From positions 1 to 22,634 of IMG/VR virus record IMGVR_UViG_3300009068_000218: DNA of 22,634 nucleotides, one strand, 5' to 3'. Shown one piece after another: positions 2,753 to 22,526 of this stretch. Numbering within the stretch: position 1 is the stretch's first letter; the number at the start of each line of letters is the position of its first letter. Below the pieces are notes generated by a model. That model was not told the DNA's origin. It made no database searches and worked only from the letters and a program-made list of their open reading frames with translations. This DNA is from a virus. The translations under genes and the position numbers were made by a program.

Positions 2753-2809
2753 AGAATATTCTCGATAAATTAAATGTGGTTATCTTCAAAGATTTATCGA
2801 GAATATTCT
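2753..2809 (+). terminator. 18-bp perfect inverted repeat between sheath and tube genes
   Basis: The arms AGAATATTCTCGATAAAT (2753-2770) and its exact reverse complement (2792-2809) flank a 21-nt spacer. The RNA would form a long A/U-rich hairpin 8 nt after the sheath stop codon. No T-run follows at once; a T5 lies about 10 nt downstream. It could be a weak terminator, an RNA processing or stability element, or a protein-binding DNA site, because the outer 10 bases of each arm are themselves a palindrome. Confidence 0.6.
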
Positions 2810-2822
2810 AAAGACCAAATTT

Positions 2823-2853
2823 TTGACACTAACTTTAAATCGATAGAGATACT
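2823..2853 (+). promoter_or_regulatory. Weak sigma70-like promoter candidate before tail tube gene
   Basis: A perfect TTGACA (2823-2828) lies 19 nt before GATACT (2848-2853, 4 of 6 matches to TATAAT), just after the inverted repeat and upstream of the tube gene. Separate transcription of the abundant tube protein would make sense. The -10 match is poor and the spacing long, so this is only a candidate. Confidence 0.2.
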
Positions 2854-2881
2854 TAAAAAAAGGTGACAGGAGAATAAGACC

Positions 2882-3373
2882 ATGGCCGCAGAGACATTAG
2901 ACGTATCATCAATGATTCCCAACAAGTTCGAGCCAAAGCGCAAGAACCGATGGGTGCTCATGATCGAGGGTATTGACGCATACATCATCAAGACGACATC
3001 TCGTCCAACGATTTCAACCGAAGAGGTTGAGGTTCCTTTCATCAACAGTCGCCGTTACCTTGCAGGTAAGACTACATTCGGAACCATCGCGGTTACACTT
3101 CACGATCCAATTGCTCCTTCAGGAGCTCAACAGGTCATGGAGTGGGTCCGTACTCACTTTGAATCCGTCTCCGGTCGTTCAGGTTACGCAGACTTCTACA
3201 AGCGCGACATTCAGCTCAAAATGCTCGACCCCGTCGGCACCGTAGTAGAACTATGGGACATCAAAGGTGCCTTCATCACAGAGGCAAACTTCGGCGAGGT
3301 CACCTACGAAGACGGCGGCCCAATGGAAATCTCAATGACACTCCGTTTTGACAATTGCGTTCTACAGTTTTGA
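2882..3373 (+). CDS. Tail tube protein, T4 gp19-like
   Basis: Subunit of the rigid inner tube through which DNA passes. The product is 163 residues, the same length as T4 gp19. It starts with a short N-terminal segment, then KNRWVLMIEGIDAYIIKTTS, a strand-rich pattern with RRYLAGKTTFGTIAVTLHDP, and the C-terminal strand MEISMTLRFDNCVLQF. These fit the beta-barrel tube fold of gp19/Hcp-like proteins. The start ATG has a strong ribosome binding site (AGGAGA at 2868-2873, 8-nt spacer). It follows the sheath gene as in most contractile-tail phages. The downstream HNH gene lies in the same frame after the TGA stop. Confidence 0.92.
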   Translation: MAAETLDVSSMIPNKFEPKRKNRWVLMIEGIDAYIIKTTSRPTISTEEVEVPFINSRRYLAGKTTFGTIAVTLHDPIAPSGAQQVMEWVRTHFESVSGRSGYADFYKRDIQLKMLDPVGTVVELWDIKGAFITEANFGEVTYEDGGPMEISMTLRFDNCVLQF

Positions 3374-3419
3374 CATCATCATTCGACAATCGCAAAAACA
3401 ATTATCAAATATACAAGTC

Positions 3420-3456
3420 AAAAGGTCCATGGTATGTATTGTACCACGGACCTTTT
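3420..3456 (+). terminator. Terminator-like hairpin overlapping the start of the HNH gene
   Basis: AAAAGGTCCATGGTA (3420-3434) pairs with TACCACGGACCTTTT (3442-3456): 14 of 15 positions match, with one A-C mismatch and a 7-nt loop. The A-tract, GC core and T-tract are the layout of an intrinsic terminator, about 47 nt after the tail tube stop. The stem also holds the presumed ribosome binding site (AAGG, 3422-3425) and the first base of the ATG of the next gene. Confidence 0.75.
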
Positions 3457-4234
3457 ATCATTTACCTGCCCTGAATGTGGACAGTATGAAACGACTAAAC
3501 TAGATTCTCTAAGAATTCATTGCCAAAAGAAGCACAGCTTGCCAACTCGCAAGCTTTACGCATTGCTTTTTCTACCTGAGGGTAAAGAACCAACATGCGC
3601 CTGTGGTTGTGGAGAGCCAACTAAGTTCTTGACTCTTCAAAGGGGATTTTCAGAATATGTCTTGGGTCATGCTGCGCGGGTTAACAACAATTGGGGACAT
3701 AATTTGAAAGCCCGAGAAAAAAGCCTTAAGAAAAGACGAGATGAAGGTTTATGGAGTCGTGATCCGTGGAATAGGGGTAAGACGAAAGAGAATGATCCTG
3801 AGTTTGCGAAGATCGTAGAAAAAGCCTACAACTCTGAAGAAGAAAAAATTAGAAAATCATCAATGATGAAAAGTCATTGGGAAAATGGCATTATTCAACC
3901 TTTAACTGGTTCTGCTCATTCACAATGGAAGGGTGGCACTTCTGCCTTGCAACCGCTTGTTCGTTCTCATCTGCATCGTGAGTGGACGTATCCTAAACTA
4001 AAGGCGTCTGGGTTTAAGTGCGCTAAGTGTAGGTCGACCAAGGATTTGGAGGTCCATCATGACGAAGAGAGGTTTGCCAAGGCTATTTGTGAGTTGGGAG
4101 AGCCTAATGAGTCCTTCGAGAAAAAGCATTTAATTGCCGAGTGGATAACCAGTTATCATATTGAGAAGAATGTTTCTGGAGTTGTTTTGTGTGAAGGATG
4201 TCATAATGGAGAGCATGGGAGCTTGAGTTTGTAG
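3434..4234 (+). CDS. HNH homing-type endonuclease, free-standing
   Basis: Predicted site-specific DNA nuclease of the mobile phage HNH type, inserted between tail genes. Visible modules: an N-terminal C2H2-like finger (C12, C15, H29, H34); a second Cys cluster CACGCG (C55, C57, C59) with H79, probably another metal site; a basic linker with WNRGKTKENDPE (about 112-123) resembling DNA-binding NUMOD-type repeats; and a C-terminal HNH module, C196/C199, EVHHDEERF (H208, H209) and VLCEGCHNGEHG (C253, C256, H257). The 266-residue length suits a phage homing nuclease. The only usual start codon in this frame is the ATG at 3434, which lies in a hairpin stem. Its base composition is more A/T-rich than the neighbouring structural genes, consistent with transfer. 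Whether it is active, and its target, cannot be told from sequence. Confidence 0.88.
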   Translation: MYCTTDLLSFTCPECGQYETTKLDSLRIHCQKKHSLPTRKLYALLFLPEGKEPTCACGCGEPTKFLTLQRGFSEYVLGHAARVNNNWGHNLKAREKSLKKRRDEGLWSRDPWNRGKTKENDPEFAKIVEKAYNSEEEKIRKSSMMKSHWENGIIQPLTGSAHSQWKGGTSALQPLVRSHLHREWTYPKLKASGFKCAKCRSTKDLEVHHDEERFAKAICELGEPNESFEKKHLIAEWITSYHIEKNVSGVVLCEGCHNGEHGSLSL

Positions 4235-14670: not shown

Positions 14671-14967
14671 ATGGCTTTTAGCAGGTATACAAGAGACAAT
14701 CTGAGGTTCGACGGAAAGGGCATGAGGACAGCTTCCGCCGTCGCCGCGTTGCGCAAAGGGATTGCGATAGGAACCATACCGATCGTCAATAAGTTCACGA
14801 TAACTCAGGCCGACCGTCTGGACACTCTTGCTGGAGAAATTTACGGAGAAGCGAGGTACTGGTGGGTCCTCGCGGCCGCGTCCGATGTCGGTTGGGGACT
14901 GCAAGTTCCACCAGACACTGTCATCAGAGTTCCTGATTTGAAGAGCGTCGAAAGAATAATTGGATGA
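14671..14967 (+). CDS. 53: Baseplate wedge protein, T4 gp53-like with LysM-type fold
   Basis: A 98-residue protein resembling the LysM-like part of T4 gp53 and phage tail X proteins. Key signs are residues 41-80: FTITQADRLDTLAGEIYGE, then ARYWWVLAAASDVGWGLQVP, ending in an IRVPDL strand. The pattern of a short strand, helix with aromatic pair YWW and proline-rich turn is the LysM-like module that helps connect baseplate parts. A ribosome binding site (AAGAGG, 14656-14661) precedes the ATG. The stop is one base before the ATG of the next gene, so translational coupling is likely. Confidence 0.8.
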   Translation: MAFSRYTRDNLRFDGKGMRTASAVAALRKGIAIGTIPIVNKFTITQADRLDTLAGEIYGEARYWWVLAAASDVGWGLQVPPDTVIRVPDLKSVERIIG

Positions 14968-14968
14968 T

Positions 14969-17900
14969 ATGCCCAGCCCGAATGATGATCGCACAAACTT
15001 CGAAAAGCTAGACTTCTACTACAGGACTCTGGCGCCGCGTGACATCTATGGCAATTTAAAGTTCCAGTCGGCAGAAGCGAATTTAAAAATAAATCCAAAC
15101 GAGAGAGTGTTCTCTGTGTACTTGAATAGTACTACGTCGGGAAAAAAAATTATTGATGAGCTTAAGGATCTTCAATTAGAGGGTAAAGGAGTTCTCTTTA
15201 ATACGGCATATCAGGGAAAAGCTGACGAGTCGACGACCTATCTTGAAGATGAGTATTGGCGTCCGTCAAACAGGTTTCCAGAGTCCGACGCATCTGATAA
15301 GAAAAAAATAAACAACTTTTACAAAGAGGTCTGCGGAGTTTCCGAAAACCCTCCGAGGGCTTTCACTGTCAACGTTCTACGTTCGCCCATGCTGAGCGAA
15401 GCTCGCAAGAATACAGGAGAGATTGAGTTCTTCTTGAACTACATGCCGTCTATTTTTCCGTCGCAGATGGTCCCGTATTTTTCTGTGGAATTTCAGCTCC
15501 CACAGACGGTCATGCAAAGCAACAATAATAATCAGCTGTACCTGCAGAGACCTTCTCTCTTGAGGTTTCTTATGGGGTCTCAGATCGACATCGCAAAAAT
15601 GCCGCTGACCGCCGCCGATCAGGCGTTGCTGTCTGTTGTCGACACGAGGGTCAAATCAAGAGAAAATCCTGCAGGAACTTCGCAATTCATCGGCATGGAG
15701 ATGTTCACCACTCCGCAGACGTTGTCGAATATGGAAGAGCTTGGGGTCACTCAAGGAAGGCTGAACCAAGTCAAGCCGTTTCTTCCTCCCGCGTCAATTT
15801 TAGGAGCGTCGATACAGATCATGAACGCGGGTGCGGGTAAGTTCGCTCACAAAAAAGCAGATATGGAGCTTAAGATACATGATAAGGCAAGGATCGTAGA
15901 GTTTTCAGAGTTCCTCAGAGGAGGTCCTGGCCACAGAGATACGACCGTGTGGTTGACATATGGCTGGTTGGCTCCTCGGAACCGAGGTGACGACGACGCT
16001 TACGCAAAGTTTATAAATGAAAATATGCTTGTGAGAGAAGCGTTCACGTTGAAGAACTCTTCTTTTTCTTTCGATAACGCCGGACAGGTCAGCGTAAAAT
16101 TGGAGCTTGTCTCCAAGGGGTTCGCGACAGTCGAATCTGCGCTGATTCAGACGACTCAAAAGACAGGCAAGACGATCCTCGAACAGCTGTCTGCGATCTT
16201 AGCAAGAATTCAGAAGAACCGTGCTGCGTTCGGCGCCGCGCCTGAAGGTCTCAACAAAGAGATCAGAATTTTTCAGGTGCTCGACGCTGCCGCCGCAGGA
16301 GACACAGACTTTGATATACCTGAAGATGAACTCAAGGGATTGTTAGACTCCGCGTCGGAGGCCATCAAAAATAGCAAGACGATAGTCGATAAAGCGGCGG
16401 CCCAGACGCTTATTGAAGATGTTGCAAGGTTATATGGTAAGAAGAAAGACCAAAAAGTAACGAACATAAAGAACGATATTTTTAAGGAGATTAAAGACTT
16501 TAACTCAAAGAACTTTGCAAAGTGCTCTTCCCAGAATAGTCCGGATCCATTTTTACCAGATCAGACGAAAAAAGTGAAAGATTACCTGTTATACTCTTCT
16601 GATCTGGTTAGGGTGACGAACGAACAAGCCGGACCAGTTAACGAACAAGCCGGCGCGCAGCAAGGAAAAGTAGCTTCAAAAGGAGCAAAAGGAGGTAAAG
16701 CCCCCACTGCTCCGGATCCGTCCCGTCGAGTTACTTCTTTTGGTAAAGTTTTTTCTGTGTTTTGTCTTCCCGCTCTTCTCAACGTAGCGTCAGAAGAAAA
16801 TATAGACGAAGTGCAGGTCAGCTTTTATCAGCTCAACGAATCTTGCGGACCTGTTAGTTTGCACAGTATTGCAGAATTTCCAATCGATCTCGCGATGTTA
16901 GAGACGCAGTTCTCAGAATTTGCTGTCGCTCGAGGTGGTGAGGCGATGACGGTTCAAGAATTCTTACAATTTATCATCGATACTCAGATTGGAGATAACA
17001 GGTCTCCTGGGTACGGAATGAGGTCTTTTTACGAACCCTACGACATCAATAAACCATCGGAGTCAGTTTCAGGAGACGAAGCAAATTACAACAAGAAGAT
17101 GACAGAGTGGGCTGGAAAGTACGGCTCTTACAAGAAGCCAAGCATCGCGATCAAGATGGAAACGACTTTCGAGAATACGAGCAACACAAAAATCAACCTT
17201 CTTGATAAGCTCCAAAGTACGGTCGGCGCTGCCTATAATGAACCGCTTCTGAACCAGACCGACCCGAATGTAAAAAAGATAAAAAAGATACACATATACG
17301 ACAAGCAACTGAACCCTTACACAAAAGAAGCCCAGCTTCTTAGAGCAGACGACGGCAGTTATACTGCGTATGACGGAGAACCTGCTAGAGAAATTGCCTC
17401 CGAAATGAAGCAGAGATTCCCCGGTTTCGACGAGAGCAGTATCCAAAACTTCGTCCAGCGACAGATAGAAAACTCTGATTCGTTTAGAGTCGCTAGAGGA
17501 AAGGACGTTCTTCGAAATTACGTCGGAAACACGGTTCCTCGACTCATCATAGGAGCGAATGGAAGTCTAATAACAAACGCGTCTTTAGCTTCAAAGACAG
17601 ACGGTCTATTGGGGACGAACAACATGCTCGGTGGAAGCTTCAAGGCAAAATCGACGTTGGCCCCGAATGGTTTGTCGATGGCGGAAAACAACATCCCAAT
17701 GAGGATCATGCCAGCTCAATTGACGCTGACGTCGATGGGATGTCCGATCGCGGATTTGTATCAGACTTATTTCGTAGACTTTGGAACAGGAACGACTCTC
17801 GACGCGATGTACGCATGCACTCAGCTTTCTCACAACTTCGGTCCAGGAAAGTTCGAGACAAGTTGGACGTTTGCTTACACAGACGGTTATGGCAAGTTCT

Positions 17901-18037
17901 TCGGAGCTCCCAATATCAAGGAGCTGTTAAAGAACGTCGACGATGCAACAGGCGAGAAACAGGGAACTCCGGGAACTTCTACCCCGACTTCTGTCGCTCC
18001 CACAGATCCAGGAAAGCAGTCCGGTCCTACGAAGTGA
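14969..18037 (+). CDS. Baseplate hub-type virion structural protein (1022 aa)
   Basis: Large protein likely forming part of the central baseplate hub or an associated ring. The C-terminal region (about residues 920-975) holds QLTLTSMGCPIADLYQTYFV, a DFGTGTTLDAMY motif, SHNFGPGKFETSWTF and YTDGYGKFFGAP, a pattern I associate with hub proteins of myoviruses. An N-terminal third has strand-rich segments (about 290-400), including TTVWLTYGWLAPRNRG. A low-complexity linker near residues 551-585 (NEQAG repeated, then Gly/Lys/Pro-rich) separates two halves. ATG 14969 is preferred: it starts 1 base after the preceding stop. TTG 14960 would add three residues. The exact T4 counterpart is not certain. 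Confidence 0.75.
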   Translation: MPSPNDDRTNFEKLDFYYRTLAPRDIYGNLKFQSAEANLKINPNERVFSVYLNSTTSGKKIIDELKDLQLEGKGVLFNTAYQGKADESTTYLEDEYWRPSNRFPESDASDKKKINNFYKEVCGVSENPPRAFTVNVLRSPMLSEARKNTGEIEFFLNYMPSIFPSQMVPYFSVEFQLPQTVMQSNNNNQLYLQRPSLLRFLMGSQIDIAKMPLTAADQALLSVVDTRVKSRENPAGTSQFIGMEMFTTPQTLSNMEELGVTQGRLNQVKPFLPPASILGASIQIMNAGAGKFAHKKADMELKIHDKARIVEFSEFLRGGPGHRDTTVWLTYGWLAPRNRGDDDAYAKFINENMLVREAFTLKNSSFSFDNAGQVSVKLELVSKGFATVESALIQTTQKTGKTILEQLSAILARIQKNRAAFGAAPEGLNKEIRIFQVLDAAAAGDTDFDIPEDELKGLLDSASEAIKNSKTIVDKAAAQTLIEDVARLYGKKKDQKVTNIKNDIFKEIKDFNSKNFAKCSSQNSPDPFLPDQTKKVKDYLLYSSDLVRVTNEQAGPVNEQAGAQQGKVASKGAKGGKAPTAPDPSRRVTSFGKVFSVFCLPALLNVASEENIDEVQVSFYQLNESCGPVSLHSIAEFPIDLAMLETQFSEFAVARGGEAMTVQEFLQFIIDTQIGDNRSPGYGMRSFYEPYDINKPSESVSGDEANYNKKMTEWAGKYGSYKKPSIAIKMETTFENTSNTKINLLDKLQSTVGAAYNEPLLNQTDPNVKKIKKIHIYDKQLNPYTKEAQLLRADDGSYTAYDGEPAREIASEMKQRFPGFDESSIQNFVQRQIENSDSFRVARGKDVLRNYVGNTVPRLIIGANGSLITNASLASKTDGLLGTNNMLGGSFKAKSTLAPNGLSMAENNIPMRIMPAQLTLTSMGCPIADLYQTYFVDFGTGTTLDAMYACTQLSHNFGPGKFETSWTFAYTDGYGKFFGAPNIKELLKNVDDATGEKQGTPGTSTPTSVAPTDPGKQSGPTK
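16619..16653 (+). repeat. In-frame 14-bp direct repeat coding NEQAG twice
   Basis: AACGAACAAGCCGG occurs at 16619-16632 and 16640-16653 (period 21 bp, 7 codons). It encodes two NEQAG units within the flexible linker of the hub-type protein and looks like a recent small duplication. Confidence 0.85.
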
Positions 18038-18047
18038 TGTTGTAGTT

Positions 18048-19295
18048 TTGTCGTTGGCTGATTTATTATTTGTCGTGGACTCTTTTTGCATATCTTCTTC
18101 CATTCTTGGAACGGATCGACACATGATCGTGTCCGATGATGGATTCATGACGATTTCTAAGGCGCCGACAGACACATGGTATCTAACCGGAGAGATGGAT
18201 CCAATGAAGCCTCTTTGTTTAGATACCCTTCTCTGTCTAAAACGTCTAGATGTGAAGCTCAAACCAGAAGACAAGTGGGTTAAGTCAATGCAGCTTCTCA
18301 CTTCGGGATCTTTGGTTCCATGGTCTCAGACGATGCCATCTGTCCCTTACAAGTCATTCATAAAAAATCTGATTAAATCCATATCAGATTCCATGGACGA
18401 TCTTCCTAAAGATTATTATAAAGAAGTCTGGGGTCCTGGTGGTCAACTTCTTGCTTCTCTTAAGGCGGCAAGAGTCGACGGTGCAGCGTACAAAGAAGTT
18501 GCGGCGACTTTGGGCAGGGACAGCGGCGCATTTGAAACTTTTAGACCTGGTCCTGGTGGATTTCTTCCTGTCGTTGAGTATGACAGATTTGCGACTCGAA
18601 CAGGTCGTCTTACTGTGTCTTCAGGTCCGAATATTTTGACATTGAAAAAAGAATACAGGAAGCTATTAAAGACAAACTTCGCTTCTGGAACGATCTGCTC
18701 TTTGGACTTTGGCGCTCTAGAAGCAAGAATCATTCTCGCGGAAGCCGGTGTGGATCCGTCGGAAAGAGACCTGTACGCAAAGATATCGAATGACATCTTC
18801 AAGGGCAGCATCGAAAGAGACAAGATAAAGACGGCAGTCATCAGCGAACTGTATGGTTCTTCGAAACACGCGCTGGGGAGTCGTTTGGGATTGTCTGGGA
18901 AGAAGCTCGACGAGTTCACCGAGTCGATACAATCGTACTTTAAGATATCGGACCTCAGAAAAAAACTGAAAGAAGAGTTCATCAGGACAGGGAAGATCAG
19001 AAACCGCCACGGCAGGTTTCTCGACCTCGACGACCCACAGGACCACCTATTTGTCAACACTTATGCCCAAAGCACGGGCGTCGACGTTGCTCTTCTAGGT
19101 TTCAAAAAGATCATTGATGATTTAGGTTCAGACGGTGTACGTCCGCTCTTCGTCCTCCACGATGCGTTGATTTTAGACGTACGTTCAGACAGGGTAGAAG
19201 ACGTAAAGAACACGACGTCGGTGGATGTTTTTGGGTATACGTCAAAGTTCCCTGTCAAATATGAAGAAATTTCGAGTGTACAGTCTTCTTCGTAG
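18048..19295 (+). CDS. Minimal family A (Pol I-like) DNA polymerase
   Basis: DNA polymerase palm and fingers of family A. Motif A SLDFGALEARII has the metal-binding Asp (codon 18705), Glu (18720) and Arg (18726). Motif B, RDKIKTAVISELYG, has Arg (18816), Lys (18828) and Tyr (18852) at the spacing of E. coli R754/K758/Y766. Motif C reads VLHDALILDV (His 19158, Asp 19161), with Ala in place of the usual Glu. The upstream TGRLTVSSGPNILTL is the template-contact region (TGRLSS in Pol I). At about 415 residues there is no 3'-5' or 5'-3' exonuclease domain and only a reduced thumb. Start is uncertain: TTG 18048, TTG 18054, GTG 18075 and ATG 18123 are possible; ATG 17943 would overlap the hub gene by 95 bases. 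It sits at the junction of tail and replication genes. Confidence 0.85.
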   Translation: MSLADLLFVVDSFCISSSILGTDRHMIVSDDGFMTISKAPTDTWYLTGEMDPMKPLCLDTLLCLKRLDVKLKPEDKWVKSMQLLTSGSLVPWSQTMPSVPYKSFIKNLIKSISDSMDDLPKDYYKEVWGPGGQLLASLKAARVDGAAYKEVAATLGRDSGAFETFRPGPGGFLPVVEYDRFATRTGRLTVSSGPNILTLKKEYRKLLKTNFASGTICSLDFGALEARIILAEAGVDPSERDLYAKISNDIFKGSIERDKIKTAVISELYGSSKHALGSRLGLSGKKLDEFTESIQSYFKISDLRKKLKEEFIRTGKIRNRHGRFLDLDDPQDHLFVNTYAQSTGVDVALLGFKKIIDDLGSDGVRPLFVLHDALILDVRSDRVEDVKNTTSVDVFGYTSKFPVKYEEISSVQSSS

Positions 19296-19311
19296 AGTAT
19301 AAAGTCGGTTC

Positions 19312-19926
19312 ATGTCGTTAACACCAGAAGAAATTGCAGCAAACTTTGATAAGTTCCGTTCACTCTGCGAGAAGCTCGGTGATCGATCAGAATCAGCTTT
19401 AAAAATGATTGATTCTATCGGCGAACAACTTGCGTTGTGTCCTGCATCATCTCGTAAGGATTTTCACGCAGCATATCCAGGAGGACTAGTCGAGCACTCT
19501 CTCCGAGTCCTGTCCAATGCCATGAAGCTTGTGAAGACTTATGGTTGGGAAGTTCCTAAGGAATCATTGATTATCAGCTGTCTTTTTCATGACATCGGTA
19601 AGGTAGGTCTAGCAAATGACGATGGATCAGTCACTGACTACTACATTCCTCAAGATTCTGACTGGCATCGTGAAAAATTAGGCGAGTTCTATAAGTATAA
19701 CAAAGACATGCAATACATGTCTACGCCTCAGCGTAGCGTTCATATGTGCCAGGCTTTTGATCTTAAATTAAAAACAGATGAATATCTTTCCATCCTTCTC
19801 AACGATGGATTTGTTCTAGATGAAAACAAGCCTTATTGTTTAAAAACAAGTCCATTGGTTTTTGCTGTGATGACAGCTGACTACATTTCTACGATGCAAG
19901 AGAAGTTTGGGGAAAGTTGGCGATGA
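19312..19926 (+). CDS. HD-domain metal-dependent phosphohydrolase
   Basis: A 204-residue protein with the HD superfamily signature: H62 (GGLVEHSLRVL), H93-D94 (LFHDIGKVG) and D190 (AVMTADYIS), which bind the catalytic metal(s). The family cleaves phosphate esters in nucleotides, nucleic acids or signalling nucleotides. The N-terminal 50 residues are helical and may be substrate-specific; HAAYPGGLVEHSL is reminiscent of nucleic-acid processing HD enzymes such as YhaM. It starts 17 bp after the polymerase stop and ends 90 bp before the next gene, so the two are probably co-transcribed. Substrate could be a nucleotide, RNA or DNA end; the sequence does not decide. Confidence 0.88.
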   Translation: MSLTPEEIAANFDKFRSLCEKLGDRSESALKMIDSIGEQLALCPASSRKDFHAAYPGGLVEHSLRVLSNAMKLVKTYGWEVPKESLIISCLFHDIGKVGLANDDGSVTDYYIPQDSDWHREKLGEFYKYNKDMQYMSTPQRSVHMCQAFDLKLKTDEYLSILLNDGFVLDENKPYCLKTSPLVFAVMTADYISTMQEKFGESWR

Positions 19927-19999
19927 TTAATAATTAAGCATGTGAAAAGCTATTGTGCACCAGGCAGACATTATTTCTACGAAGCAAGAAAAAGAGTGA

Positions 20000-20015
20000 G
20001 TAGATATTTATCTAC
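20000..20015 (+). promoter_or_regulatory. Near-palindrome abutting the start codon of the 88-aa gene
   Basis: GTAGATATTTATCTAC is a 7-bp inverted repeat around a 2-base centre, ending at the base before the ATG at 20016. As RNA the 6 outer pairs with a 4-base loop would partly occlude initiation. As DNA it could be an operator. On the minus strand it contains GATAAATA, one base from the T4 late-promoter core, but that would point away from the gene. Confidence 0.45.
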
Positions 20016-20282
20016 ATGAACGACCTGCTGAAGAAGTACATAAAGGAAATTATCCTTGAAATTCAAGGAAATCCCAGAGTGTCTGATCAGCTAGTCAAAA
20101 AGAGCTCAAATTCTAAAAAAAACAACAAAGAAGATTCAGAAGAAGAAGTTGAAGAAATGAGTACTGTTGCGACCAGCTTGGTTCCCGGTGGCGGATTTGC
20201 TACGCCGCTTGGATGGACAAGTGCAAATGTGCAAGGTCCTGGTACTCGCTCCAAGAGACGTAAAAAATCAAAACGTCGTTGA
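20016..20282 (+). CDS. Small highly charged protein, function unknown
   Basis: An 88-residue protein with three zones: an amphipathic helix at the N-terminus (LLKKYIKEIILEI), an acidic and lysine-mixed middle (about 29-48, SSNSKKNNKEDSEEEVEEMS), and a Gly/Pro segment (VPGGGFATPLGW) ending in a basic tail (RSKRRKKSKRR). The tail suggests nucleic acid or acidic-protein binding. The start overlaps the end of a short open stretch (ATGA). No clear Shine-Dalgarno sequence is visible and a palindrome abuts the ATG. An internal ATG at 20158 would make a 40-residue short form. No family recognised with confidence. Confidence 0.7.
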   Translation: MNDLLKKYIKEIILEIQGNPRVSDQLVKKSSNSKKNNKEDSEEEVEEMSTVATSLVPGGGFATPLGWTSANVQGPGTRSKRRKKSKRR

Positions 20283-20291
20283 AGCAAAATC

Positions 20292-20319
20292 TTGAACACG
20301 AGATGTACTAGAGAATAAT
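20292..20319 (+). promoter_or_regulatory. Possible sigma70-like promoter before the SSB gene
   Basis: TTGAAC (20292-20297, 4 of 6) and AATAAT (20314-20319, 5 of 6) are spaced 16 nt apart. The expected start of transcription would fall near 20326, inside the hairpin described next. A promoter here would let the SSB gene be expressed apart from the upstream operon. Confidence 0.3.
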
Positions 20320-20402
20320 GTCTTAACCTGCCTACATGCTGTAGGTGGTTAAAGTTGTTCTCTGTTTTTAACGGAAAATGGAATAGGAAATAGGAAAATA
20401 TT
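20310..20402 (+). promoter_or_regulatory. Structured leader and purine tract of the SSB gene, possible autogenous control site
   Basis: TTAACC (20323-20328) pairs with GGTTAA (20347-20352) and GCCTAC (20330-20335) pairs with GTAGGT (20341-20346, one G-U pair), leaving a single bulged U and a 5-nt loop. An outer helix, AGAGAA (20310-20315) with TTCTCT (20358-20363), encloses it. Then follow a short T-run and an unstructured purine-rich tract (20372-20398) with GGAAAAT, GGAAT, AGGAAAT and AGGAAAAT just before the ATG. This arrangement resembles the autoregulatory leader of T4 gene 32; it could instead be a terminator-like stem. Confidence 0.5.
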
Positions 20403-21245
20403 ATGGCAATTGATCTAGAAGCGATTCGTAAGCGTGTTGCAGAACTCAACGGAACTAGCAAGCGGTCATCGGTGCAGCTGTGGAAGCCACCGGTAGGCGA
20501 GCATAAGATTAGGTGTCTTCCATGGAAGAATTCACCAGATGGGCAACCATTTGCAGAGCGTTGGTTTTATTACATCGGTGATAATGCAGGAATCTTGACA
20601 CCAAACCAGTTCGGTAAACCAGATCCAATTAATGATTTGATTCGTAAGCTGTACAGCAGCGGTAAGCCAGATGATCGTGTCTTGGCAAAGAAGTTACAAC
20701 CAAAGATGAGGTGTTATGCACCAGTGGTTGTTCGTGGTCAAGAAGATAGAGGTGTAATGGTTTGGTCTTTTGGAAAGATTGTCTATCAACGAATGCTTAG
20801 CTTTTTCCTTGATGAGGAGGTCGGTGACATCCTTTCTCCAACAGAAGGGTTTGATCTCAAGGTGACTTTGAGTCAAGCTCCTGGTAAAGCATTCATGGAT
20901 ACGATGGTAGATCCGGCTCGTCGACCAACAAAGCTGCATGATGATTCAAAACAGGTTGAGTCATGGCTCAATTCGATCCCAAACCTTGATGACATGTATC
21001 GACTCAAGTCGACTCAAGAGATCGAGATGGTTCTTAACAACTGGTTGAACGGTGGCACTTCAGAAGATTTGTCCACAGCTTCTACGACTAGAGGCCCAGC
21101 AACGACTGATGCTCTTGATGATCTTGTTGCAGAGGTCAAGGCTTCAACCCCAGAAAAGTCAAAAAAGAAAAAGACCGAGGATGATGCACCCGTCAAGAAG
21201 CAATCTCTTGATGACGCGTTTGCCGATTTGATGGGCGACGAGTGA
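20403..21245 (+). CDS. 32: Single-stranded DNA binding protein, T4 gp32-like
   Basis: Coats single-stranded DNA during replication and recombination. The 280-residue product begins with helix AIDLEAIRKRVAELN and a basic KRSS (20-23) comparable to the LAST-type motif of gp32. The core has VGEHKIRCLPW (31-41), AERWFYYIG (51-59), LQPKMRCYAPVVVRG (98-112) and VMVWSFGKIVYQRMLSFF (118-135), typical of the phage gp32 OB-fold. The zinc-binding His/Cys cluster of T4 gp32 is not visible. The C-terminus is a flexible linker ending in an acidic tail, SLDDAFADLMGDE, used by gp32 and SSB proteins to recruit partners. It precedes UvsX, its usual working partner. The ribosome binding site is AGGAAAA at 20392-20398. 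Confidence 0.9.
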   Translation: MAIDLEAIRKRVAELNGTSKRSSVQLWKPPVGEHKIRCLPWKNSPDGQPFAERWFYYIGDNAGILTPNQFGKPDPINDLIRKLYSSGKPDDRVLAKKLQPKMRCYAPVVVRGQEDRGVMVWSFGKIVYQRMLSFFLDEEVGDILSPTEGFDLKVTLSQAPGKAFMDTMVDPARRPTKLHDDSKQVESWLNSIPNLDDMYRLKSTQEIEMVLNNWLNGGTSEDLSTASTTRGPATTDALDDLVAEVKASTPEKSKKKKTEDDAPVKKQSLDDAFADLMGDE

Positions 21246-21260
21246 TTTTGCGTTGACATC

Positions 21261-21301
21261 TTGCAAACGCCGGAAATCAATTAGGTTTCCGGCGTTTGTA
21301 C
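21261..21301 (+). terminator. Intrinsic terminator after the SSB gene
   Basis: CAAACGCCGGAAA (21264-21276) is followed by a 9-nt loop and its exact reverse complement (21286-21298). With a G-T wobble and two A-T pairs the stem extends to 21261-21301. The stem is GC-rich in the core. There is no long T-run after it beyond the GTTTG of the stem. It separates the SSB gene from uvsX. Confidence 0.7.
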
Positions 21302-21335
21302 TATCTGTGCATTTAAGTAGATAATAACAGAACAT

Positions 21336-22526
21336 ATGGCAAAGAGTAAAGAAGAAACGACTGTTTCAAAAAAAGGCGAAGTTGATTTTGCGGCAGAGTT
21401 GATCAGGGACATTAACAAGGAGTTTGGCACGCGAATCGCGTACAATCTCTCAGAGATGGACGCTCCCACAGTGGTAAAGCGTTGGATCGATACTGGATCA
21501 ATTCAAATAAATTATGCGATTAAGAATGCGCTCGGTGGTGGATACCCAGAAGGTCGCATCATTGAAATTGCTGGCTTACCATCTTCTGGTAAGTCACATT
21601 TGGCTTACCACGCCGCGGCGATTATACAGAAGCAAGGCGGTCTAGTCGTATACATTGATACTGAAAACTCAGTGCCCGTTCAGAAGTTGGCTGACATGGG
21701 CATTGATGTTCGTAAACGATTTGTCTATTGTGACTCTCACTGCACTGAGGAAGTGTTCTCGATCATTGAGTCGACGATCACAAAGGCAAAGCAGATTCTT
21801 GATAAGAACATTCCCATCCTTGTTGTCTGGGATTCGATTGCCGCAACTTCTCCAAAGGCTGAATTGGACGGCGAATACGAGCAAAACTCTATCGGACTTC
21901 AAGCCCGCGCAATTTCGAAGGGAATGCGTAAGATCACTGGTGTAATTGGACAGAACAATGTCACACTTCTTTGTATTAATCAGATTAGAGATGCCATTGG
22001 CGTCATGCATGGTGATCCTACGACAACTCCTGGTGGAAAAGCTATTCCGTTCCATTCTTCAGTAAGAATCCGTCTTGGATCTGGAAGCCAAGTAAAAGAC
22101 AAGAACGGTAATCCAATTGGTATCCACACAACAGTTACGATCAAAAAGAATAAAGTCGCCGCTCCGTTCCGCAAGTGCGAGTTTGACATTATCTTTGGAA
22201 AGGGTATCGTTGAGGATGAATATATTTTTGACGAAGTTCGATCTCACTGCAAGGAAAACGGTCCTGTCAAGCGTAAAGGAAAGACTATCAACGTTTCTGG
22301 AGAAGGAGCGTGGAAGGAACTTAGCGTTGTCGATGACAAGACTGGAGAGGTTATCGTAGAAAAGAAATTCTATAAGTCAGAGTTTGGTTCACTTCTTAGG
22401 GATGATAAACACGGTCCTTGGTTGATGGAAGCAGTAGATGCTGCTCTAACTCTGGTGGTGGGACCAGCTGCTGATCCAAACGAAACAGACGATAACGTTA
22501 CTGATGACGGAGGTTCAGATGACTGA
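21336..22526 (+). CDS. uvsX: UvsX/RecA-family recombinase
   Basis: ATP-dependent strand-exchange protein for recombination-driven replication and repair. Visible features: Walker A GLPSSGKS (80-87), catalytic Glu in YIDTEN (E110), Walker B ILVVWDS (161-167, D166), and the L2-type DNA-binding region from NQIRDAIG (215-222) to TPGGKAIPFHSS (231-242). The 396 residues match UvsX/RecA lengths, and the acidic C-terminus (ETDDNVTDDGGSDD) is typical. It follows the gp32-like gene and terminator and overlaps the dUTPase start by 8 bases. The ATG has no strong Shine-Dalgarno sequence; an AGTAGATA motif sits 19 nt upstream. Confidence 0.94.
   Translation: MAKSKEETTVSKKGEVDFAAELIRDINKEFGTRIAYNLSEMDAPTVVKRWIDTGSIQINYAIKNALGGGYPEGRIIEIAGLPSSGKSHLAYHAAAIIQKQGGLVVYIDTENSVPVQKLADMGIDVRKRFVYCDSHCTEEVFSIIESTITKAKQILDKNIPILVVWDSIAATSPKAELDGEYEQNSIGLQARAISKGMRKITGVIGQNNVTLLCINQIRDAIGVMHGDPTTTPGGKAIPFHSSVRIRLGSGSQVKDKNGNPIGIHTTVTIKKNKVAAPFRKCEFDIIFGKGIVEDEYIFDEVRSHCKENGPVKRKGKTINVSGEGAWKELSVVDDKTGEVIVEKKFYKSEFGSLLRDDKHGPWLMEAVDAALTLVVGPAADPNETDDNVTDDGGSDD

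Follow-up and report, generated by a model that had tools for sequence, protein, structure and literature searches.

A small, nearly thumbless family A DNA polymerase in a phage replication and recombination gene cluster is probably an accessory, Pol I-like enzyme

Small family A DNA polymerases with a divergent architecture, termed divPolA1, have been described in 14 phages including Flavobacterium phage immuto (Yutin et al. 2024, Virol J 21:200, PMC11348598). They keep the palm, carry a truncated thumb and an inactivated exonuclease, adjoin replication genes, and occur in phages that also encode a regular polymerase, be it of family A, B or C (PMC11348598). The published description of polymerases of this type rests on those 14 genomes, and no biochemistry was found in the literature. 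In divPolA2, the N-terminal region is unrelated and the gene neighbourhood variable (PMC11348598). Among cellular enzymes, Pol I often has a dead proofreading domain, and bacteria without the 5′–3′ exonuclease domain of Pol I usually have a stand-alone one (NAR 2026, PMC12926913).

Here we compare with these systems a small polymerase encoded in a 22,634-base IMG/VR virus record, the whole of which is referred to as the window. The record is a fragment of a genome and, from its sequence, reads as part of the genome of a T4-like myovirus: genes for a tail sheath, a tail tube, a gp26-like baseplate protein, a very long tape-measure-like open reading frame (ORF) and a gp25-like baseplate wedge are followed by those for the polymerase, an HD-domain protein, an 88-aa protein, a gp32-type single-strand DNA-binding protein (SSB) and UvsX. 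The genes around the polymerase are as follows.

14960..18037, plus strand: tail/baseplate-region protein, 1025 aa, directly upstream of the polymerase (same position in 24 of 26 relatives)
18075..19295, plus strand: small family A DNA polymerase, 406 aa
19312..19926, plus strand: HD-domain protein, 204 aa, with a predicted YhaM-type 3′–5′ exonuclease fold (PF01966, E 1.2e-6)
20016..20282, plus strand: 88-aa protein with no assigned function, belonging in many relatives to the conserved cluster
20403..21245, plus strand: gp32-like SSB (PF08804, E 1.9e-10)
21336..22526, plus strand: UvsX/RecA recombinase (PF00154, E 2.1e-64; PHROG 97, E 9.7e-75)

A second contig (L002), whose polymerase is identical to that of the window, overlaps the window end and extends the sequence by 1.3 kb, encoding a dUTPase and a 5′–3′ exonuclease (PF02739, E 5.5e-26). 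Within the tail region, the sheath protein (893 aa; 64-2745) is unusually long, and known sheath families match its C-terminal part only. Between the tail tube and gp26-like genes lies a 266-aa ORF (3434-4234), possibly a homing endonuclease, which, by eye, begins with a Zn-finger-like segment and ends with an HNH-like one, and which matches no Pfam family above cut-off.

The original prediction, made from the sequence alone, was of a minimal family A DNA polymerase of about 415 residues, and such an enzyme is indeed encoded. The open frame 17943/18048-19295 on the plus strand matches PF00476 (E 1.5e-12, score 47.6 against a cut-off of 34.3), PHROG 17 (E 1.6e-19) and Taq PolI (E 4e-7), and its codons are under purifying selection, with pN 0.22 and pS 0.83 relative to the closest relative (synonymous sites saturated). 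The protein is small, as proposed, but its start is probably GTG 18075 (about 406 aa) and not TTG 18048 (415 aa), because this in-frame start is conserved in most close relatives and the structure model shows residues 1–8 of the 415-aa reading as disordered. The palm and fingers of family A, with motifs 1, A, B and C and both catalytic Asp residues, are present in an alignment of 48 sequences, which upholds the claim that all motifs are in place. The motifs are located as follows.

18600..18611, plus strand: motif 1, TGRL (E. coli R668 region); T185 in 98% and G186, R187 and L188 in 100% of the 48 sequences
18705..18728, plus strand: motif A, DFGALEAR; catalytic D220 corresponds to E. coli D705 and E225 to E710 (hhalign to E. 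coli); D220, E225 and R227 invariant
18816..18857, plus strand: motif B, the O-helix RDKIKTAVISELYG, with Ile at the F762 position; R257, K261, Y269 and G270 invariant
19158..19166, plus strand: motif C, HDA; catalytic D372 corresponds to E. coli D882; H371 and D372 invariant

Q341 is invariant as well. Against this background of invariant catalytic residues there are two departures: (i) the O-helix RDKIKTAVISELYG, which hhalign places against E. coli RRSAKAINFGLIYG, has Ile in the window polymerase where E. coli has Phe (F762), and (ii) motif C is HDA where the textbook sequence is HDE, with Ala at the E. coli E883 position in all 45 of the 45 sequences that contain the motif. As motif C thus lacks the Glu that is normal for family A, catalysis may be slow or altered.

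An AlphaFold2 model built with the alignment of 48 sequences (pLDDT 90.6, pTM 0.88) provides an opportunity to locate what has been lost upstream of the palm. Residues 9–411 of the model align with Klenow residues 348–927 (Z 22.7 over 386 residues; VIA-align), the match to Bst has Z 24.0, and Klenow, Bst and Taq are all aligned end to end with Z 21–24. Two reduced regions are thereby delimited.

18075..18401, plus strand: vestigial 3′–5′ exonuclease-like N-terminal region (residues 10–118 in the 415-aa reading), from the Klenow alignment of the whole-protein model
18408..18566, plus strand: rudimentary thumb (residues 121–173), consisting only of helices 121–136, 145–154 and 160–163 in the model

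The exonuclease-like region has shrunk to about 110 residues, and none of the DEDD acids (the DxE/D/D set) is conserved in it among the 48 sequences; the conserved N-terminal positions are instead G21, W44, W92, P97 and LDT at 58–60. Given the end-to-end alignment with Klenow and Bst, the modelled N-terminus most likely represents the remains of a 3′–5′ exonuclease domain and not a new domain. The earlier statement that the protein lacks a 3′–5′ exonuclease is accordingly right for activity, judged by the missing acids, although a vestige of the fold is predicted. The reduction of the thumb is as had been claimed: the segment D144–R187 spans 43 residues, compared with 120 for D548–R668 in E. 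coli Pol I. Although D144 was assigned as the Asp anchoring the thumb start from the sequence pattern, the shortness itself is visible in the model, in which the stretch 137–176 contains short helices only and the full thumb of canonical Pol I (about 100 residues, with long antiparallel helices) is absent.

BLAST of this polymerase against 50,697 phage records returned canonical polymerases only, at low identity. A motif search based on an alignment that included the small polymerase of immuto yielded 46 relatives at about 26–70% identity; more were added from SSB-anchored loci, and residue conservation was scored on the resulting alignment of 48, in which identities run from 27 to 70%. The window polymerase belongs to a separate clade (support 100/99) with dozens of members, and immuto-type matches number at least 565 in one viral collection; small accessory family A polymerases of divPolA1-type architecture are thus common in phages. 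Searches of 84,980 prokaryote genomes gave 2 hits, both in metagenome-assembled genomes, and the possibility of a recent cellular gene was rejected on this count. Several individual loci merit mention. In Microcystis phage Mel-JY01 (L007:7820-9046), a 408-aa ‘hypothetical protein’ is a divPolA1-type polymerase by its similarity to the immuto protein (phmmer E 7e-22), and it has no PF00476 match. The 595 kb phage LR756511 (L016) encodes on its minus strand, at 1489-2775 and 2772-3545, a short PolA of another sort (428 aa) and, before it, a 257-aa ORF; to the eye, the product of the latter resembles a second palm-type protein (IDIINSQ, IHDS), but it matches no Pfam or PHROG family. Finally, when window positions 18075-22526 are compared with five related loci (L175, L178, L140, L135 and L123), the polymerase is 43–67% alike, whereas values of 78–91% hold for the HD protein, UvsX and, in those loci that have it, the exonuclease gene, which suggests that the polymerase evolves fastest or has been exchanged separately.

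The gene neighbourhood is highly conserved. Among window-clade loci with at least 8 kb of downstream sequence, 25 of 26 have the order PolA, HD protein, SSB, UvsX, 5′–3′ exonuclease and DnaB, and a dUTPase gene lies between UvsX and the 5′–3′ exonuclease in 23. SSB, UvsX, 5′–3′ exonuclease and DnaB are likewise found downstream in 29/29 loci of the immuto group, which have no linked HD gene. At one locus (L188:1950-4106), the polymerase, the HD protein and the next small protein share a single open frame with no stop between them. This fusion was rejected as proof of a polymerase–HD partnership, since the third gene is also read through and the case comes from a single metagenome contig; a close relative, L187, has the polymerase and the HD protein as separate genes.

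Other polymerases in these phages bear directly on whether the small enzyme copies the genome. Each of 13 window-clade relatives (48–309 kb) contains exactly one PolA match, the small one, and nine of them encode a DnaE-type replicase elsewhere; the four with no DnaE match are among the shorter, incomplete contigs (48–97 kb). Two DnaEs checked in full possess PHP, polymerase, fingers and HhH domains, and no family B polymerase was found in the window clade. In the immuto group, immuto itself and four long contigs have, besides the small polymerase, a full-length exo+ PolA of about 780 aa, and the small polymerase of Mel-JY01 coexists with PolB. The genome LR756508 carries DnaE together with PolB pieces, and in the records behind L134, L144 and L147 the DnaE matches extend over two or three ORFs, as if split or interrupted. 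The second complete replicative polymerase whose presence was to weaken the idea of a split replicase is therefore found in relatives; for the window phage we infer it from them, as the window covers just a 22.6 kb fragment of its genome, in which no DnaE was seen. Exonucleases of the classical proofreading types are scarce: DnaQ-type PF00929 occurs in 2/13 window-clade relatives, and DEDDy-type PF01612 in 0/13.

A different candidate for a 3′–5′ exonuclease adjoins the polymerase. The model of the HD protein (pLDDT 93.7) matches YhaM (9h3f) with Z 17.8 over 175 of its 204 residues, compared with Z 9.0 for the next best structure, and the putative active site (H62, H93, D94 and D190) is kept in 37–38 of 40 sequences; the sequence profile match to YhaM/Cbf1 is marginal (E 0.032). 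With DEDDy exonucleases absent and RNase_T-type enzymes rare in the window clade, this protein may, as a hypothesis, be regarded as the best candidate for a 3′–5′ exonuclease acting with the polymerase. The suggestion that an exonuclease is encoded separately may thus be partly right, in that a YhaM-like gene comes next, although the DnaQ or Pol I type that had been envisaged is almost never found. A stronger version, in which the lost DnaQ-type proofreading has been replaced in trans by this non-homologous enzyme, through proofreading or 3′ trimming, seems doubtful to us. The Bacillus subtilis yhaM null mutant is reportedly not a mutator. HD homologues occur in 3 of the 5 immuto-group genomes examined, where they are not adjacent to the polymerase. 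In Prevotella phage Lak-C1 (L010), about 1 kb separates PolB pieces from a homologue at 389439-389891, and HD proteins of the YhaM-like kind may therefore adjoin polymerases of another family too. An explanation of the HD neighbour through Z-genome chemistry (DatZ/PurZ) was rejected, PurZ (PF00709) being absent from 11 relatives.

Taken together, these features make it probable that the window polymerase is an accessory, second family A polymerase of divPolA1 architecture, engaged in Pol I-like gap filling or recombination. The original alternative of a small repair or translesion enzyme survives in outline, as an accessory polymerase in a recombination and replication cluster. Genome copying in this phage group would be performed by the DnaE-type polymerase III alpha subunit and not by the small polymerase. 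Klenow thumb mutants lose DNA affinity and processivity. A nearly thumbless enzyme would by the same reasoning hold DNA weakly and, if catalytically active, make only short stretches unless held by partners, so that a partner-held, distributive enzyme of low processivity is to be expected. The likely partners, in physical contact or otherwise, would come from the same cluster: SSB, UvsX, the 5′–3′ exonuclease, the DnaB helicase and the YhaM-fold HD protein. Such an arrangement would amount to a ‘Pol I in pieces’, in which separate proteins together do the work of Pol I: removal of flaps or RNA primers would fall to the 5′–3′ exonuclease and trimming of 3′ ends to the HD protein, and the small polymerase would fill short gaps at Okazaki junctions or extend recombination intermediates. 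As to the exact substrate, the gene neighbourhood fits gap filling, D-loop extension and lesion bypass alike and does not separate them.

Lesion bypass is the basis of the most serious competing explanation, that of a small, low-fidelity translesion polymerase recruited by UvsX and SSB to copy past damage. The loss of the thumb and, through the dead exonuclease, of proofreading, the replacement of the O-helix Phe by Ile, the HDA form of motif C, the proximity of the gene to that of the UvsX recombinase and its conservation alongside a separate replicase would all suit such an enzyme. However, the catalytic residues are otherwise canonical, and the constant company of a 5′–3′ exonuclease and a helicase is better suited to replication or gap filling; we therefore consider a dedicated translesion role unlikely, though by some way the least unlikely of the alternatives. 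A second explanation, the split replicase of the original prediction, would make the small protein the main phage polymerase, while separate proteins would take over proofreading and the tasks of the thumb. Domain loss and a cluster encoding SSB, helicase and nucleases are compatible with it, and the authors who described divPolA1 took its replication-gene context to favour a part in replication (Yutin et al. 2024, PMC11348598). Nevertheless, this reading was rejected as highly improbable, since relatives possess DnaE (9/13 long relatives), a full exo+ PolA (immuto phages) or PolB (Mel-JY01), and there is almost no DnaQ- or DEDDy-type exonuclease with which the proposed half could pair.

It is similarly improbable that the protein is a repurposed palm that does not act as a DNA polymerase in practice, such as an RNA polymerase, a primase-like enzyme or a structural subunit. 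The missing thumb would be in keeping with this, and motif C HDA is nearer to that of single-subunit RNA polymerases than to that of DNA Pol I. On the other hand, the motif A Glu that blocks ribonucleotides is kept (E225, equivalent to E. coli E710), R257, K261 and Y269 are invariant, and every one of the best structural matches listed is a DNA polymerase.

If the accessory reading is correct, the persistence of the small polymerase beside DnaE, PolB or a full PolA, and invariably at the head of the same SSB–UvsX–exonuclease–helicase genes, points to a need of large phages for their own Pol I-like helper. A natural polymerase almost without a thumb offers a test of the purpose of that subdomain, and the adjacent YhaM-like protein suggests, in a form open to direct test, how a polymerase with a dead exonuclease might obtain editing or 3′-end preparation. 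Should proofreading by the HD protein in trans prove true, it would imply that a family A polymerase can work almost thumbless because its partners hold the DNA.

Comparison with the known systems places the window polymerase closest to divPolA1 in kind. Like the divPolA1 of immuto (about 440 aa), it combines palm motifs with a truncated thumb and a dead exonuclease; in both groups SSB, UvsX, 5′–3′ exonuclease and DnaB genes follow downstream, a regular polymerase is encoded elsewhere (for the window clade, in relatives), Ala follows the motif C Asp, and QS replaces QG. The two nevertheless share only 14–19% identity and no BLAST link, and the window profile matches divPolA1 (probability 96%, E 4e-9) less strongly than canonical PolA (99.4%). 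Further differences are the motif A residue (Glu in the window clade, His in immuto), the HD gene (adjacent in the window clade, distant in the immuto group) and the partner polymerase (DnaE in window-clade relatives, a full PolA in immuto). We treat the window polymerase as belonging to a separate, new clade of divPolA1-type polymerases; a common origin is likely from the shared neighbourhood, and the tree speaks neither for nor against a union of the two clades (56/0). The divPolA2 of barbaviruses (Yutin et al. 2024) is also a small accessory family A palm (about 430 aa) without a standard thumb or exonuclease, but identity with it was set aside as doubtful, as hhalign gives only a weak profile match to AUR84708 (probability 18%, E 0.0013, over 148 columns covering part of the palm and fingers). 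The HD neighbour resembles YhaM/Cbf1 of Firmicutes in having an HD fold over nearly the whole protein and an H...HD...D active site; it differs in having no N-terminal OB domain and in being phage-encoded beside a polymerase. With E. coli DNA polymerase I (Klenow), the window polymerase shares the fold of palm, fingers and remnant exonuclease and the catalytic residues, and it differs in being phage-encoded and in having no exonuclease catalytic site, a thumb shorter by about 75 residues, and HDA as motif C. In window-type phages the 5′–3′ exonuclease has a separate gene, unlike in E. coli Pol I; stand-alone 5′–3′ exonucleases and commonly dead proofreading domains in bacteria both fit a Pol I-like role for the cluster, and gap filling with the 5′–3′ exonuclease, akin to that of E. 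coli Pol I, is the likely function.
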